Source: a bacterium
GTDB lineage: Bacteria; Hydrothermota; Tepidihabitantia; SM23-42; JAOAFX01
Assembly (NCBI GenBank): GCA_036382775.1
Contig: DASVHD010000030.1
Location: 1-64,000 of the forward strand
DNA length: 64,000 bases
Direction: 5' to 3'
Shown: one piece after another, positions 1 to 20,807 of the stretch
How the letters are laid out: every line of letters begins with the position of its first letter
Position numbering within the stretch: the stretch's first letter is position 1
Translations under genes and position numbers: made by a program
Notes under the pieces: generated by a model
What the model saw: the letters and a program-made list of their open reading frames with translations, nothing else
What the model was told of the DNA's origin: nothing
Database searches by the model: none

Positions 1-120
1 CACGGCGGATGCCGCGCGCAGTCCACGCGGCCGGCCAAATCCCACGATCTCGTTGTGGTTCATTTCCGGGATCACGTTGGTATGGCAGATGACCTTGGAA
101 TTCTCGTTAAGCTGGCACCG
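1..120 (-). pseudogene. 3' fragment of a second pgi/pmi gene, running off the left edge
   Basis: Positions 1-120 match 2707-2826, inside the complete phosphoglucose/phosphomannose isomerase gene, at 118 of 120 bases; the first 108 bases are identical. The two differences, at 109 and 115, are both synonymous in the isomerase frame (Leu and Cys codons). The fragment encodes the catalytic PExNHNEI segment, but homology stops abruptly at 120. The frame stays open back to a stop at 178-180 with no ATG, so the N-terminal part of the enzyme is missing. It lies just downstream of the secreted repeat gene at 150-2360, so that gene is bracketed by two copies of the same isomerase segment. How far it extends leftward is unknown. 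It may be a pseudogene or the tail of a rearranged second copy. Confidence 0.75.
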
Positions 121-149
121 CGCTGTCGTATCGTTTGGCCATCCTTTTA

Positions 150-2360
150 TTATTCTTCTCTTTTCCAGCAATATCCATTAGTCCGCATCTGCGCCGTATC
201 AGCAGCGATGCAAGCAACAATAATTGAATCAATATTTAAATATGCCCATGACAGCCCGCCATTCAACCCTGTCGTTCCTTTGGCGGTCAGGGTGACTATC
301 GAATTGTCCGAGACGCCCCTGATCACAACTGTATCTATTATGCAGGTTCCGGTAAAATGCTGATGACCGTTGATCAGTCCATTTCCGGTTATTCCTACTA
401 TAGTATCAACTTTGAATACGGTTGCTCCGTCACTTTTCAATTCCCAGGACCAGGGCTTGAAAAAAGTCGTATCGGTCGTGCCCAATAACATTTCCGTGAT
501 TAAATCGCCGGTCGTGTGGCGTAGCTGATACATAATAGTGTCAAGAATCCCCCACCGAATAAACTCAACGAATCCCGAGCCATGACTGCCATATTTTCCA
601 AACAAAGTATCCGTTACGGCATCAATGACCCTCACGCTGTCGTTAGGATTGTGTCCGAACTCAGAGCAGTTCGGTTTGATCTTCATAAATGTGAACATTC
701 CAAAACCGTAGCCCGGACGATCCATATAGATCGCAAACGGATAACTTTCAAATGGTATCGCATCACGATTCCATTGTTCGCGGACAAATATCCGTTGATT
801 GCCGTATTCCGGCTGTAATTTCCTTGATTTCAACGCTAACGTGATATTCCCCCGGCTGTAAAAGTTTATGTCTTTATTCGCTGCCGACGTACCTTCCGTG
901 CATATCTGAAACTCATCAGCCGCTAAACCCATTGTGACATATGCTACACTTTCCGGAATCGGTTCCAGCACCTTTGGAAACCTCATCATTATTGCCGGTG
1001 ATCCTGACCAGATTGCGATCCCCCCGCTATCCTCCCAAGTGGTGTAAGAACGCTTCGGGAAATATACACCCGTATCGGCAAGTCCTTCCTGATTCATTGC
1101 GACGTGAATGAAGTCACGGTTAAAAGAACTATTATTGATCGTAAAGTTACCGCTTTGTACACAGGTATTTCCCAAAAAATAACCGGCGAAGTTTTTATCA
1201 CCGCCCGAAGCATTTGCATATATGCCAAAGCAGGTATCACCGGGCTGACCCACATTCAAAAAATACCCGGCGAATGATGGCCGGGATGCAACGGCGGAAT
1301 GGTTTATCCAGGAATAGACGCCAAAGAGTGAGTCTGGGGTCTCGACGCCGTAATTATTTTCATTGGCATCGGCAAAAACAGCATATTTCTTGCCATAACC
1401 GCCGCCGTGCACCATGCCATAGACACCATACAATCGGCCGGCTGAGTGCTCTTCCATTTCCGCATCGCCGAAAACCCCATAACATGAAAGCGTTTCCGCG
1501 GCGCCGCCGTGGGCCTTCCCAAATACACCGTACCGATAACCGCCATCGGCCAATCCGGAGCCCACGGTATCGACATTGAAGTATCCACCAAACATAAGCG
1601 GCGCCTGGAGATTCGGATCGTATAATTTATTACGCAGATTTACTTCCAGCCCTATCAGTCTATTATATGTGCTGTCAAGGTTGGATATTCGTAAAATGGA
1701 TACGACGGAATCTGCGCCCCAGCGCCAGCGGCTGCCGGTAAAAATGGAATCTTTCAAGATCCCAATGGTATCAGTTACGTTGTCTCTAAGAAAATTTTGC
1801 CCGTAAATGTATGCACCTTTATTATAAAGCGAATCCGTTTTTGTACTAATGCCGTGATATATTCCTAATGTATCAATCCATGATTTACGAGTAAATATTT
1901 TTGTATAATCGGACGTCGATGTGCCAAAAATCGCCAAAGTCTCATCTTGGGCAGTGTAATAATTATTTAAAACCACCACCAGTGGAGTACCGGCTGCCGC
2001 AAAATATCCAGCTGCTTTACCATTGTTTGCTACTCCACCTACAGCAAAAGCCCAATCAGGTTGACTCGCTATAACTTCTAATGTTCTGAACCATGATGAC
2101 AATGCCACAGCGGTTGTTTCTCCGCTAACCTGAAAAGCATCATCAGCACCGGAAATTTGGACTAAATCGCTGGTAGTCCCATGGGCGATGAAGCGTCTTA
2201 AATTAAGCGAATCGCCGGTAAGAGCGGTAAATGTATCTGGTACATCATCCCGTAGAAAATACTGACCATACCTGTATGCATTTTTATTCCACAATGAATC
2301 GGCTTTTTGGGCAAAAGCGCTTAATGCAATCATCGCCAGCAATGTTAAAATACTTTTCAT
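150..2360 (-). CDS. Large secreted protein with tail-fibre-like GVYG/GYF repeats
   Basis: The ATG at 2360 was chosen because it opens a clear signal peptide (MKSILTLLAMIALSAFA) and follows a strong TAAGGAGGAG ribosome site; the open frame extends a further 27 codons upstream without either. The mature protein (736 aa in all) has two copies of a D-S-L-[WY]-N-K-x-A-Y-x-Y-G-Q-x-F-L-R-D motif, near residues 20 and 180 of the precursor. A central array of short YGVFG/YGVYG/AGYF repeats follows, of the kind seen in secreted or adhesive beta-helical and tail-fibre-like proteins. No enzymatic motif is visible. It is the last complete gene of the PTS operon, 64 bp after pgi/pmi. A small inverted repeat (CTAAAC/GTTTAG, 2375-2392) sits in the gap. 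Surface or extracellular structural role is inferred. Confidence 0.7.
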   Translation of the reverse strand: MKSILTLLAMIALSAFAQKADSLWNKNAYRYGQYFLRDDVPDTFTALTGDSLNLRRFIAHGTTSDLVQISGADDAFQVSGETTAVALSSWFRTLEVIASQPDWAFAVGGVANNGKAAGYFAAAGTPLVVVLNNYYTAQDETLAIFGTSTSDYTKIFTRKSWIDTLGIYHGISTKTDSLYNKGAYIYGQNFLRDNVTDTIGILKDSIFTGSRWRWGADSVVSILRISNLDSTYNRLIGLEVNLRNKLYDPNLQAPLMFGGYFNVDTVGSGLADGGYRYGVFGKAHGGAAETLSCYGVFGDAEMEEHSAGRLYGVYGMVHGGGYGKKYAVFADANENNYGVETPDSLFGVYSWINHSAVASRPSFAGYFLNVGQPGDTCFGIYANASGGDKNFAGYFLGNTCVQSGNFTINNSSFNRDFIHVAMNQEGLADTGVYFPKRSYTTWEDSGGIAIWSGSPAIMMRFPKVLEPIPESVAYVTMGLAADEFQICTEGTSAANKDINFYSRGNITLALKSRKLQPEYGNQRIFVREQWNRDAIPFESYPFAIYMDRPGYGFGMFTFMKIKPNCSEFGHNPNDSVRVIDAVTDTLFGKYGSHGSGFVEFIRWGILDTIMYQLRHTTGDLITEMLLGTTDTTFFKPWSWELKSDGATVFKVDTIVGITGNGLINGHQHFTGTCIIDTVVIRGVSDNSIVTLTAKGTTGLNGGLSWAYLNIDSIIVACIAADTAQMRTNGYCWKREE

Positions 2361-2424
2361 ATAGCTCCTCCTTACTAAACATGTTGGTTTAGCACCTTTT
2401 AATGTCAGAATACATAGCCTGACT

Positions 2425-3495
2425 TCATCGCTTGCGTCCATTTATCAGAAACAATACTCCAGGTGCCGATAATCTTTGTTTCAAATAATCGATCCTCTTC
2501 ACCGGAAGGGGATCGATGCCCGTTTTTACTGCCAGGTGATAGCTTAAAAAATCGCCCAGCATGATCGTCCAAAAAACGCGCTGGGCAAGGTCTTTCCCCT
2601 GCGGTTCGATCTCCAGAACCTCGCTGGTCTCATTCTGGATGATCTCCTTTAAAATAGTCGTCCTGAGCTTGTTCCGCGCATGGGCCGCCGGGTCGTTAAG
2701 CAAGATCACGGCGGATGCCGCGCGCAGTCCACGCGGCCGGCCAAATCCCACGATCTCGTTGTGGTTCATTTCCGGGATCACGTTGGTATGGCAGATGACC
2801 TTGGAATTCTCGTTCAGCTGACACCGCCAGCGGTTCGCGACGACGCCGAAGGCCGGCGAATTGGCGTAAATGAAAACGAACTTGTCGGTAAGATGCGACG
2901 CAATCTTTTCCCCAGCCCGGTCAAGGTCATTCCTTTCTCTTTTCAAGAACGCGACCAGATTAATAATCCCGAAAACCGGGTTGTCCTTGATCAACCCGAA
3001 CCTGTGCAGGATGACCGGTAGGGGACCGTAGAGATAACCGAGAGCGCCGCGCGGCGGCAGCCCCGCGGGGACTTTGACCTTGAACAAAACACGCTTTTGC
3101 TGCAGCCGGCCGTTGGATGAAACCGTTACCAGTGGTACCTTGAGCTTTGACAGATAACGGTAATTCGCCAGTGTTTCCTCCGTGTTCCCCGAATAACTTA
3201 TCAGGATCGCCAGCGTACCTTTTCCGACCGATGCCGGAATGTTATAATCCTTGCTGCTCCGGATGCTCACTTCCGGGTACAGGATGGACAGGATCTCGCC
3301 GCTGATCCCGGATCCGCCCATGCCGCAGACAACGACCTTGTTCGCATGTCGTGAAGCACGCGCAGTCCCGGGCACGAAGGTTACCGCCTGCAGGAGCTGG
3401 TCAGGCAGCGAATAGATGATATCGCGCATGTTGATCTTCGGTCCCGTGCTGCAGGCGGCGGATCTTGTGCGGGCTTGCCGGCCGGCATGAACCAT
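2425..3495 (-). CDS. Bifunctional phosphoglucose/phosphomannose isomerase
   Basis: A SIS-domain sugar isomerase that interconverts glucose-6-P or mannose-6-P with fructose-6-P. The N-terminal SIS nucleotide-like loop CGMGGSGISGE is clear. The family catalytic region with Glu and His appears as PEMNHNEIVGF, and the C-terminus has the usual PVKRIDYLKQRL ending. Length (356 aa) is close to the archaeal and bacterial PGI/PMI family. The ATG at 3495 is 5 bp after the Enzyme I stop. A second ATG at 3429 (MRDII) is possible, but family members usually carry a short GPxNM-like lead-in that is present here upstream of it. It sits directly downstream of a complete Man-family PTS membrane complex, so mannose-6-P or glucose-6-P from transport is the likely substrate. 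Part of this gene is duplicated at positions 1-120. Confidence 0.88.
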   Translation of the reverse strand: MVHAGRQARTRSAACSTGPKINMRDIIYSLPDQLLQAVTFVPGTARASRHANKVVVCGMGGSGISGEILSILYPEVSIRSSKDYNIPASVGKGTLAILISYSGNTEETLANYRYLSKLKVPLVTVSSNGRLQQKRVLFKVKVPAGLPPRGALGYLYGPLPVILHRFGLIKDNPVFGIINLVAFLKRERNDLDRAGEKIASHLTDKFVFIYANSPAFGVVANRWRCQLNENSKVICHTNVIPEMNHNEIVGFGRPRGLRAASAVILLNDPAAHARNKLRTTILKEIIQNETSEVLEIEPQGKDLAQRVFWTIMLGDFLSYHLAVKTGIDPLPVKRIDYLKQRLSAPGVLFLINGRKR

Positions 3496-12506: not shown

Positions 12507-13613
12507 TTACTTCTTCTCGAAGGAACCCCAGCCCCGTTCCGCCGTTGCTTCGATACCTACCAGACGCAGTTTGAATTCATCCGGGTTGGAGACGGCCTGG
12601 ATAGCATCATCGTAAGCGATCTGCCCGTCTTTGTAAAGACGGAAAATGGACTGATCGAACGTCTGCATGCCGTACTGCCCGTACCCCTCCTCGATCGCTG
12701 ACTGGACAAGGAGTGTCTTGACCGGGTCCAGCAGGTATTCTTTGACGGTGGGTGTTGAGATTAAAACTTCGACGGCGGGGATCCTCCCCTTGCCGTCGGC
12801 CCGCGGCAGCAGGCGGAGCGAAACCACCCCCACGAGCGTTGTTGCCAGCAGCACTCTGATGTGCTGGTGCTGGTGAGGCGGATAAAAAGAGATTATGCGG
12901 TTGATCGTCTCAGCCGCGTTGAGGGTATGCAGGGTGGACAGCACCAGATGCCCGGTATCCGCAGCCTTTAAAGCGACGTCCATTGTTTCCCGGTCCCTGA
13001 TCTCGCCGATCAGGATCACGTCCGGATCCTGCCGCAGGATGTGCCGGAGGGCGATCGAGAACGATATTGTATCCATCAATACTTCCCGCTGGTTTATTAT
13101 CGAAAGATTGTCGCGGAACAGATATTCGATCGGATCTTCAATGGTAATGATATGGCGCGAGGCGTTCTCGTTCAAATGCTCGATCAACGCGGCCAGCGTC
13201 GTTGATTTTCCGCTGCCGGTCGTCCCCGTGCACAACATCAAACCCCGCGGTTTCAGGGAGAGCTCCTTAAGGATCGCGGGCAGGTTCAACTCATCGATCC
13301 GCTTCACCGAGATCGGGATGGCCCTCATTGCGATCGCGATACTGCCGCGCTGGAGGAAGATATTGACCCGGAAACGGCCGACGCCGCGGACGCCAATGGC
13401 AAAATCCATTTCCTTCATGCGTTCAAAAGCCTGCTGCTGCGAAGGGGTCATGATCTGGTATGCCATGGTCTTAAGCGTTTCCGGTGTAAGCGACTCGCCC
13501 TTTTCTATGACGAGACGTCCGTCGATCCTGAAGACCGGCGGCGCGCCCGCCTTGAGATGCAAGTCAGACGCGTTGACCTTCACCATCTTTTCCAACAATA
13601 TTTTTAGTTCCAT
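12507..13613 (-). CDS. PilT/PilU-like twitching ATPase (copy 1)
   Basis: A 368-aa hexameric retraction ATPase of the type IV pilus / secretion ATPase superfamily. N-terminal PAS-like part KVNASDLHLKAG; Walker A CTGTTGSGKSTTLAAL; the Asp box TIEDPIEYLF; Walker B DVILIGEIRD; His box STLHT. The C-terminal GMQTFDQSIFRLYKDGQI region is nearer PilU-like proteins than the AIRNLIRE motif of PilT. An AGGA ribosome site precedes the ATG at 13613. It is embedded between accB and accC in a co-directional cluster. No other pilus gene is present nearby apart from two more paralogues at 18.7-20.8 kb. Confidence 0.9.
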   Translation of the reverse strand: MELKILLEKMVKVNASDLHLKAGAPPVFRIDGRLVIEKGESLTPETLKTMAYQIMTPSQQQAFERMKEMDFAIGVRGVGRFRVNIFLQRGSIAIAMRAIPISVKRIDELNLPAILKELSLKPRGLMLCTGTTGSGKSTTLAALIEHLNENASRHIITIEDPIEYLFRDNLSIINQREVLMDTISFSIALRHILRQDPDVILIGEIRDRETMDVALKAADTGHLVLSTLHTLNAAETINRIISFYPPHQHQHIRVLLATTLVGVVSLRLLPRADGKGRIPAVEVLISTPTVKEYLLDPVKTLLVQSAIEEGYGQYGMQTFDQSIFRLYKDGQIAYDDAIQAVSNPDEFKLRLVGIEATAERGWGSFEKK

Positions 13614-18673: not shown

Positions 18674-19746
18674 TATTTGGTCTGTGATATTTCTTCCATC
18701 TCTTTGTGGAACGCGTCGGGATTGAGCGCCTTGACCTCAGCCTCCTTTTGGCCGGCGATCTTTCTCTTTACCAGATTCGCCAGGCATGCGTCGAATGTGA
18801 TCATGCCCTGCTGTTGCGAAGTCTGGAGGATCGATAGCAGCTGGTGCGTCTTTGCTTCCCGGATAAGGTTCCTCACCCCGCCGGTGGCGATCAGGATCTC
18901 GTACGCCGCGATCCGGCCTGACCCGTCAACGCGTTTGAGCAGGTTCTGGGAAAAAATGCAGAGCAGGTTGAGTGACAGCTGCATCCTGATCTGGTTCTGC
19001 TGATGCGGCGGGAAGACATCGATGATCCGGTCCAGCGTGGAAATGGCATCCGCGGTGTGCAGGGTTGTGACGACGAGATGACCGGTTTCTGCCGCGGTGA
19101 TGGCCAGGGAGATCGTCTCGAGGTCGCGCATCTCGCCCACCAGGATCACGTCCGGGTCCTGCCGCAGGACGAATTTAAGGGCGTTGGCGAACGAATGCGT
19201 GTCCCGACCGACCTCGCGCTGTGTTACCAGGGCTTTCTTGTTAGTATGGATGAACTCGACCGGATCTTCGACTGTCACGATATGGCTGGTATCGCATTCG
19301 TTCCGGAAATCGATCAGCGCCGCCTGCGTTGTGGATTTGCCGCAGCCGGATGGGCCGGTCACGACGATCAGTCCGCGCGGCCGCATGACCAGGTCTTTCA
19401 ATACCTTGGGAAAACCAAGATCATCGATCGTCGGGATCTTGGCCGGAATAAGGCGGAACACGGCGCCCAGGTGCCCGCGCTGCTTGAAAAAGTTGACCCG
19501 GAACCGGGCGACTTGCGGCAGCTCGTAGGAAATGTCAAGCTCGCTGTTCTTCTTGAACTCTTCGATCTGACTCTTTTGCAGCATCTCCACGATGCCTGAT
19601 TCCACGTCGAGCTCCGTGATTGGGGGAAGATTGACGGGCGCAAGATCGCCGTTGACCCTGAGGATCGGCGGGGAACCGACTTTCAGGATCAGGTCGGAGG
19701 CATTATACTGGATCTGCGCGTGCAGTAGTTCCTGGATGCGGATCAT
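18673..19746 (-). CDS. PilT-like twitching ATPase (copy 2)
   Basis: A 357-aa PilT-family ATPase: N-terminal NASDLILKVGSPPILRVNG; Walker A VTGPSGCGKSTTQAAL; Asp box TVEDPVEFIH; Walker B DVILVGEMRD; C-terminal GVRNLIREAK, close to the AIRNLIRE motif important for retraction in PilT. The ATG at 19746 is 2 bp beyond the stop of copy 3; a GTG at 19752 would give a 4-nt overlap instead. The Walker A is Gly-Cys-Gly instead of Gly-Ser-Gly. Paired tandem pilT genes recall PilT/PilU pairs. Confidence 0.9.
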   Translation of the reverse strand: MIRIQELLHAQIQYNASDLILKVGSPPILRVNGDLAPVNLPPITELDVESGIVEMLQKSQIEEFKKNSELDISYELPQVARFRVNFFKQRGHLGAVFRLIPAKIPTIDDLGFPKVLKDLVMRPRGLIVVTGPSGCGKSTTQAALIDFRNECDTSHIVTVEDPVEFIHTNKKALVTQREVGRDTHSFANALKFVLRQDPDVILVGEMRDLETISLAITAAETGHLVVTTLHTADAISTLDRIIDVFPPHQQNQIRMQLSLNLLCIFSQNLLKRVDGSGRIAAYEILIATGGVRNLIREAKTHQLLSILQTSQQQGMITFDACLANLVKRKIAGQKEAEVKALNPDAFHKEMEEISQTK

Positions 19747-19748
19747 GA

Positions 19749-20807
19749 TCACACTCTTTTTTCGAACTCATCGGGATTGGTGCAATGCGCGATCGCCTCT
19801 TCCATCTCGATCAATCCCTGATGCAAAAGGTTTCTCAGATACTGGTCCATCTGGATCATGCCGAGCTTGGAACCGGTCTGGATCGCCGAGTAGATCTGCG
19901 GTGTTTTGGCTTCCCGGATCGCGCTGCGGATCGCCGGTGTGCAAGCCATGATCTCGAATGCCGCGACCCTGCCGGCGCCGTCTTTGCGGCGCACCAGGGT
20001 CTCGGTGATCACCGCTTGCAGGCAGGTCGAAAGCTGAAGCCGGATCTGCTGCTGCTGCGATGGCGGGAACACGTCGATGATCCGGTCGATGGTCTGGACC
20101 GCGTCGATCGTGTGCAGCGTGGAGAATACCAGGTGGCCGGTCTCAGCCGCGGTTATGGTCTGGCCGATCGTTTCCAGGTCGCGCATCTCGCCGACCAGGA
20201 TTATATCCGGGTTCTGGCGGATCGCGCGGCGCAGGGCTTCGGCGTAAGAGGACGTGTCGATGCCGATCTCGCGCTGCTCGATGATCGAAGACTTGTCGCG
20301 GTGCAGGAACTCGATCGGATCCTCGATCGTGATAATATGCTTCTTCATCACCGAATTGATATGTTCGATCATCGCGGCCAGGGTCGTGGATTTCCCGCTG
20401 CCGGTCGGTCCCGTGACCAGTACAAGACCGCGGTTCAGCTCGGCGATCCGTTTCATGACCGCCGGGTATCCCCATTCGTCGATCGTCTTGATCTTGAGCG
20501 GGATGATCCTCATGACAACGCCCACATGGTTCATCTGCTTGAAGCAGTTCACCCGGAAGCGGGCGACGCCCGGGATCTCGTAAGCCATGTCGAATTCCAG
20601 CGCTTGTTCGAACAACTTACGCTGGAGCGGTTTCATCAACCCGTAGATAACTTCCTCGATATCCTGATCAAAAAGGGGCTGATAATCGGTCCGTTCCAGG
20701 TTGCCCGCGACCCTGAAGACCGGCGGTTCGCCGACCCGCAAATGCAGATCAGAGCCCTCTTTTAAAACAAGTTCTTCGAGCAGGACGTCGAGATCGATCT
20801 TAGCCAT
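19749..20807 (-). CDS. pilT: PilT-like twitching ATPase (copy 3)
   Basis: A 352-aa PilT with all canonical parts: EGSDLHLRVGEPPVFRVAG, Walker A VTGPTGSGKSTTLAAM, Asp box TIEDPIEFLH, Walker B DIILVGEMRD, His box STLHTIDAVQT, and C-terminal AIRSAIREAK. Of the three copies it is closest to standard PilT. The ATG at 20807 lacks a clear ribosome site. It is 57 bp downstream of a small lipoprotein gene and directly upstream of copy 2 and recG. Confidence 0.9.
   Translation of the reverse strand: MAKIDLDVLLEELVLKEGSDLHLRVGEPPVFRVAGNLERTDYQPLFDQDIEEVIYGLMKPLQRKLFEQALEFDMAYEIPGVARFRVNCFKQMNHVGVVMRIIPLKIKTIDEWGYPAVMKRIAELNRGLVLVTGPTGSGKSTTLAAMIEHINSVMKKHIITIEDPIEFLHRDKSSIIEQREIGIDTSSYAEALRRAIRQNPDIILVGEMRDLETIGQTITAAETGHLVFSTLHTIDAVQTIDRIIDVFPPSQQQQIRLQLSTCLQAVITETLVRRKDGAGRVAAFEIMACTPAIRSAIREAKTPQIYSAIQTGSKLGMIQMDQYLRNLLHQGLIEMEEAIAHCTNPDEFEKRV

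Follow-up and report, generated by a model that had tools for sequence, protein, structure and literature searches.

A gene for bifunctional phosphoglucose/phosphomannose isomerase (pgi/pmi) near the start of the stretch of bacterial DNA analyzed here (the window, 64,000 bp) appears, with moderate confidence, to have been entered by foreign DNA that carried part of a diverged pgi/pmi and a secreted-protein gene, through a single homologous crossover. The event is best read as a horizontal acquisition with partial duplication, which is of a known kind and not a new system. The locus holds two copies of pgi/pmi with mosaic edges, a non-homologous tail, and an insert of atypical composition. One copy continues on C2, a second contig of the same genome. 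The features in the window are the following.

1-121, minus strand: beginning of the second, truncated pgi/pmi copy (codons ~223-263), which resumes at C2:1-190 after ~58 bp unseen
109-121, minus strand: recoded edge of the truncated copy at the insert junction, with 2 synonymous differences in 13 bp
122-2463, no strand assigned: inserted segment of atypical composition, G+C 45%
150-2360, minus strand: gene for an orphan secreted protein of 736 aa, with a signal-peptide-like N-terminus, the Shine-Dalgarno sequence AAGGAGGAG, and no sorting tail found
2425-2463, minus strand: 12-codon tail PGVLFLINGRKR and stop, without homology to the readable relatives
2425-3495, minus strand: full-length pgi/pmi with a mosaic 3' end (PF10432, PF01380, TIGR02128), last gene of a conserved PTS operon
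2464-2509, minus strand: recoded 3' end in the full copy, covering codons ~329-344, from comparison with the C2 copy and codon-usage likelihood
2488-2517, no strand assigned: hairpin of 13 positions with 12 Watson-Crick pairs, arms ATCGATCC and GGATCGAT, straddling the mosaic boundary between 2509 and 2510

Partial duplication across two contigs

Window 1-121 aligns without gaps to 2707-2827 and is identical at 119 of 121 positions (98%). The only two mismatches, at 109/2815 and 115/2821, are both synonymous (TGC/TGT and CTT/CTG), and similarity to the 2707-2827 region ends at 121, with none beyond. The longest repeat expected by chance in 64 kb is about 16 bp; the match is a real duplication and not a chance event. 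The alignment agrees with a preliminary description of the locus, in which bases 1-120 were said to copy 2707-2826 with two synonymous differences and then to diverge sharply, and the position given there for the secreted gene, between the truncated copy and the full isomerase gene, is borne out by a minus-strand open reading frame from 2360 to 150.

The window comprises bases 1-64,000 of contig C30 (~90 kb, part of a MAG), so its first base is the end of that contig. Reading further to the left, as the preliminary description had proposed, leads to another contig: a search of the bacterium's own genome with the copy region finds a second pgi/pmi piece at the start of C2, where the copy carries on. 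Bases 1-139 of C2 are identical to window 2648-2510 reversed at 139 of 139 positions, in an orientation that fits a continuation of the window copy. From C2:140, the sequence diverges abruptly from the window copy, with homology persisting to codon ~345, and the C2 copy terminates with a native-looking RLSAE and stop. Between the C30 and C2 pieces of the second copy lies an unseen gap of ~58 bp, through which the two contigs are presumed to join; the second copy spans codons ~223-345 in total. The middle of the repeat, between the recoded edges, measures ~305 bp, of which 247 bp are seen, and the seen part is identical in both copies. The truncated copy is read as a relict fragment.

Many pairs of contig ends in the MAG have exactly 141 bp in common, the mark of a MEGAHIT-like assembly at k=141. 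The junction at 121/122 falls in the first 141-mer of C30 and lies inside contiguous 141-mers, hence the assembler had sequence spanning it. Given this junction, the copy's own variants, and its continuation on another contig, the misassembly or graph artefact at position 120 that had been feared earlier is probably not the source of the copy. The contig-end overlaps that were checked gave no exact branch node for either edge of pgi. Compared with the nodes that a simple two-copy repeat would produce, C30 ends 33 bp too early and C2 begins ~2 bp too late, offsets that may reflect strain variants.

Mosaic 3' end of the full-length isomerase gene

Bifunctional pgi/pmi is recognized by a SIS domain together with a bact-PGI_C domain at curated score, and the full-length copy contains both, scoring 160 bits for PF10432 (cut-off 24.5; E=4.5e-47), 25.3 for PF01380 (cut-off 25), and 222 for TIGR02128 (cut-off 213.9). 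With an intact reading frame, this copy is probably functional. Its earlier description as complete holds for the full-length frame and fails for the end of the gene, where the last ~16 codons and the stop differ from C2 and the 12-residue tail is absent from readable relatives.

The recoded 3' end differs from the C2 copy at 18 of 48 nucleotides but only at 3 of 16 amino acids, with 6, 0, and 12 differences at the first, second, and third codon positions, respectively. A neutral simulation of this edge gives a mean of 10.4 amino acid changes, and none of 20,000 runs gave three or fewer. By host codon-usage likelihood, the window 3' end falls in the 1.4th percentile and the C2 end in the 21st. 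At the 5' edge (109-121), the chance that two random substitutions are both silent is p=0.028. Recoded pgi sequence is found solely at 109-121 and 2464-2509, both abutting the insert. Because the many nucleotide differences bring so few amino acid changes, with none at second positions and only silent changes at the 5' edge, the edges touching the insert look like pieces of another pgi/pmi that diverged under selection while functional. The synonymous changes had earlier been taken as a hint that both copies were once under selection; a truncated copy lacking its 5' part is not plausibly selected, and the confinement of recoded bases to the insert edges points instead to a diverged donor allele.

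The pgi/pmi gene is present in 56 of the 61 genomes searched (own genome included), once per genome except in the own genome and in G060, where the weak second match probably reflects a single gene divided between two contigs. The order HPr-ptsI-pgi is kept in WOR-3-type relatives, mostly with EIIB/C/D. Judged from plus-strand loci with a C-terminus recognizable as pgi/pmi, the gene in readable relatives ends no more than about three residues from position 344; the stop of the C2 copy fits these relatives, and that of the window copy does not. From this stop position and the atypical codon usage of the window end, the native downstream side is assigned to C2, and the tail in the window is attributed to the insert.

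The insert and its secreted-protein gene

The insert has a G+C content of 45% against 56% in pgi, and the secreted gene a GC3 of 0.45 against 0.71. It contains one credible gene. This reading frame is open up to 2441, but the ATG at 2360 is preceded by AAGGAGGAG and starts the signal-peptide-like N-terminus. The gene starts 64 bp after the new stop of pgi, has a good ribosome-binding site of its own, and is probably read together with the PTS operon. No integrase or recombinase was found in the 2.3-kb insert among its open reading frames or by Pfam and NCBIfam searches. Site-specific integrative elements combine such an enzyme with a short core repeat, and the identical repeat here measures ~305 bp.

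The secreted protein has no match in Pfam, NCBIfam, or PHROGs. No relatives of its gene were found in the other 146 phylum genomes (147 searched, own included), and IMG/VR yielded no relative and no phage relative. T9SS cargo is defined by a C-terminal sorting domain, and a profile search found no Por_Secre_tail in the protein. A paralog occurs in the own genome only, on contig C41 (6082-7449), where it sits among sugar-nucleotide and glycosyltransferase-like genes and is 39-44% identical over part of the length. The paralog has a GC3 of 0.56 and a sub-threshold Por_Secre_tail at its C-terminus (23.6 of 27 bits); no second partial duplication was found around it.

Directly behind the native pgi end, C2 188-616 encodes a four-helix bundle of the 23S rRNA intervening-sequence type, scoring above the cut-off of TIGR02436 and below that of PF05635. 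On the minus strand at C2 ~600-1042 lie apparently decayed remains of a secreted protein with a weak DUF5122 beta-propeller match, the end of which resembles a C-terminal sorting domain. The region downstream of native pgi looks like a secreted-gene graveyard as well.

Proposed integration by a single crossover

In the proposed mechanism, a donor of ~2.7 kb, made up of codons ~223-344 from the 3' part of a diverged pgi/pmi followed by the secreted gene, would have entered the ancestor as a circle or its equivalent, and one homologous crossover would have taken place between it and the resident pgi/pmi. The left part of the product would consist of native 5' pgi, a host-identical middle, the donor 3' end with its tail, and the secreted gene; the right part would consist of donor codons 223-226, a host-identical middle, and the native 3' end with downstream DNA (C2). 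A crossover with a circular donor would leave the insert bordered at each end by donor bases, with host bases beyond them, as is seen. The locus has the layout of an insertion-duplication, with direct repeats flanking the insert, a hybrid full copy (2425-3495), and a truncated copy (1-121 and C2:1-190, the ~58-bp link unseen), and bases specific to the donor adjoin the insert at either end (109-121 and 2464-2509). For the identical middle, the simplest assumption is host sequence in each of the two copies; it would have been host-like from the start or converted. The preliminary description had offered a segmental duplication or an insertion by recombination; an insertion with a direct repeat stands, whereas a plain duplication leaves the recoded 3' end unexplained.

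The insert would be of foreign source, and no donor turned up in the remaining 146 genomes of the phylum or in IMG/VR. The genome encodes ComEC and DprA, which is compatible with DNA uptake and not proof of it. Both proteins are also found in bacteria that are not known for competence. The missing donor and the unseen link between C2 and C30 weigh against this reading. In addition, the ~305-bp middle needs a conversion tract if the donor segment had diverged throughout to the degree seen at its edges, and secreted genes may be compositionally atypical without transfer (GC3 of the C41 paralog, 0.56).

Prophage or island integration at the 3' end of a gene supplies a recoded replacement end, as exemplified by e14 at icd. 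As in that case, pgi/pmi regains a recoded, protein-conserving 3' end; unlike e14, the 2.3-kb insert lacks an integrase, and the flanking identity far exceeds a recombinase core. Single-crossover integration of pJA2 at Escherichia coli lacZ left 109-950 bp of lacZ duplicated (PMC3240628), and the present locus resembles it in the insert placed between directly repeated portions of the target gene, the one hybrid and one truncated copy, and the similar size of the duplication. It differs in being natural, in belonging to an uncultured phylum, in a diverged donor allele that is visible only at the repeat edges, and in having no vector or integrase. Homology-facilitated illegitimate recombination (HFIR) and transformation-induced merodiploidy are similar in that one-sided homology can trap foreign DNA and partial duplications are possible (PMC3784515, PMC3240628); unlike the present case, HFIR usually deletes host DNA and relies on short microhomology. 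The pneumococcal duplications described are mostly 100-900 kb and lie between repeats (PMC3784515).

On the crossover reading, a core metabolic gene can get a new C-terminus as a by-product, and the locus offers a readable footprint of an orphan secreted gene possibly gained by an uncultured WOR-3-type bacterium without mobile-element machinery. A systematic search for footprints of this sort could serve to estimate the frequency of one-crossover gene capture in lineages that cannot be grown.

Competing explanations

The main rival, unlikely though worth serious consideration, is HFIR onto the sister chromosome, in which a homologous crossover at ~2510 would lead into the donor and an illegitimate return into host pgi at codon ~223 would duplicate the stretch between. 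The exact identity of the middle would then need no conversion at all, and small duplications without flanking repeats do arise in pneumococcal transformation (PMC3784515). HFIR joints typically have 3-10 bp of microhomology (PMC3240628); the putative microhomology at window 109-121 has 11 matches in 13 positions, and both mismatches are synonymous, a pattern (p=0.028, as above) more in keeping with a real pgi allele than with microhomology. The typical outcome of HFIR is also a deletion and not a duplication (PMC3240628).

It is improbable that C2 and C30 derive from co-assembled strains, one with pgi joined to C2 and the other with the insert. Contig ends do follow k=141 graph nodes, and the ends of C30 and C2 miss the nodes of a simple two-copy repeat by 33 and ~2 bp, both of which count in favor of such a mixture. 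However, C30:1-121 carries variants of its own, its junction is non-repeated and is covered by contiguous 141-mers, a strain bearing the truncated copy is required anyway, and 139 exact bases beside a saturated stretch are not expected between diverged strains. A tandem partial duplication that arose long ago in the lineage, its middle kept identical by gene conversion while the edges drift, is very improbable and was rejected on the codon pattern at the edges. An identical middle with divergent ends is the expected footprint of gene conversion, but a truncated, untranslated copy would not retain 13 of 16 residues at the 3' end with saturated synonymous sites, and the new tail, the codon-usage shift, and the low-G+C insert are left unexplained.

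Hairpin and other repeats

The hairpin at 2488-2517 is near-perfect; it is present in the recoded window version only and absent from the C2 version. Hairpins of similar strength number about ten in 104 kb, and the chance of a hit on the boundary is ~0.3% by after-the-fact arithmetic; the hairpin is a curiosity. It would be a far-fetched extrapolation to regard the pgi/pmi 3' end as a repeated landing site, at which hairpin-bounded cassettes with different secreted genes and a recoded pgi end, exchanged by recombination, would form a surface-variation locus without a dedicated recombinase. Elsewhere in the window, three diverged direct repeats of 202 nt (12833-13034, 18963-19164, and 20018-20219) are 65-73% identical.
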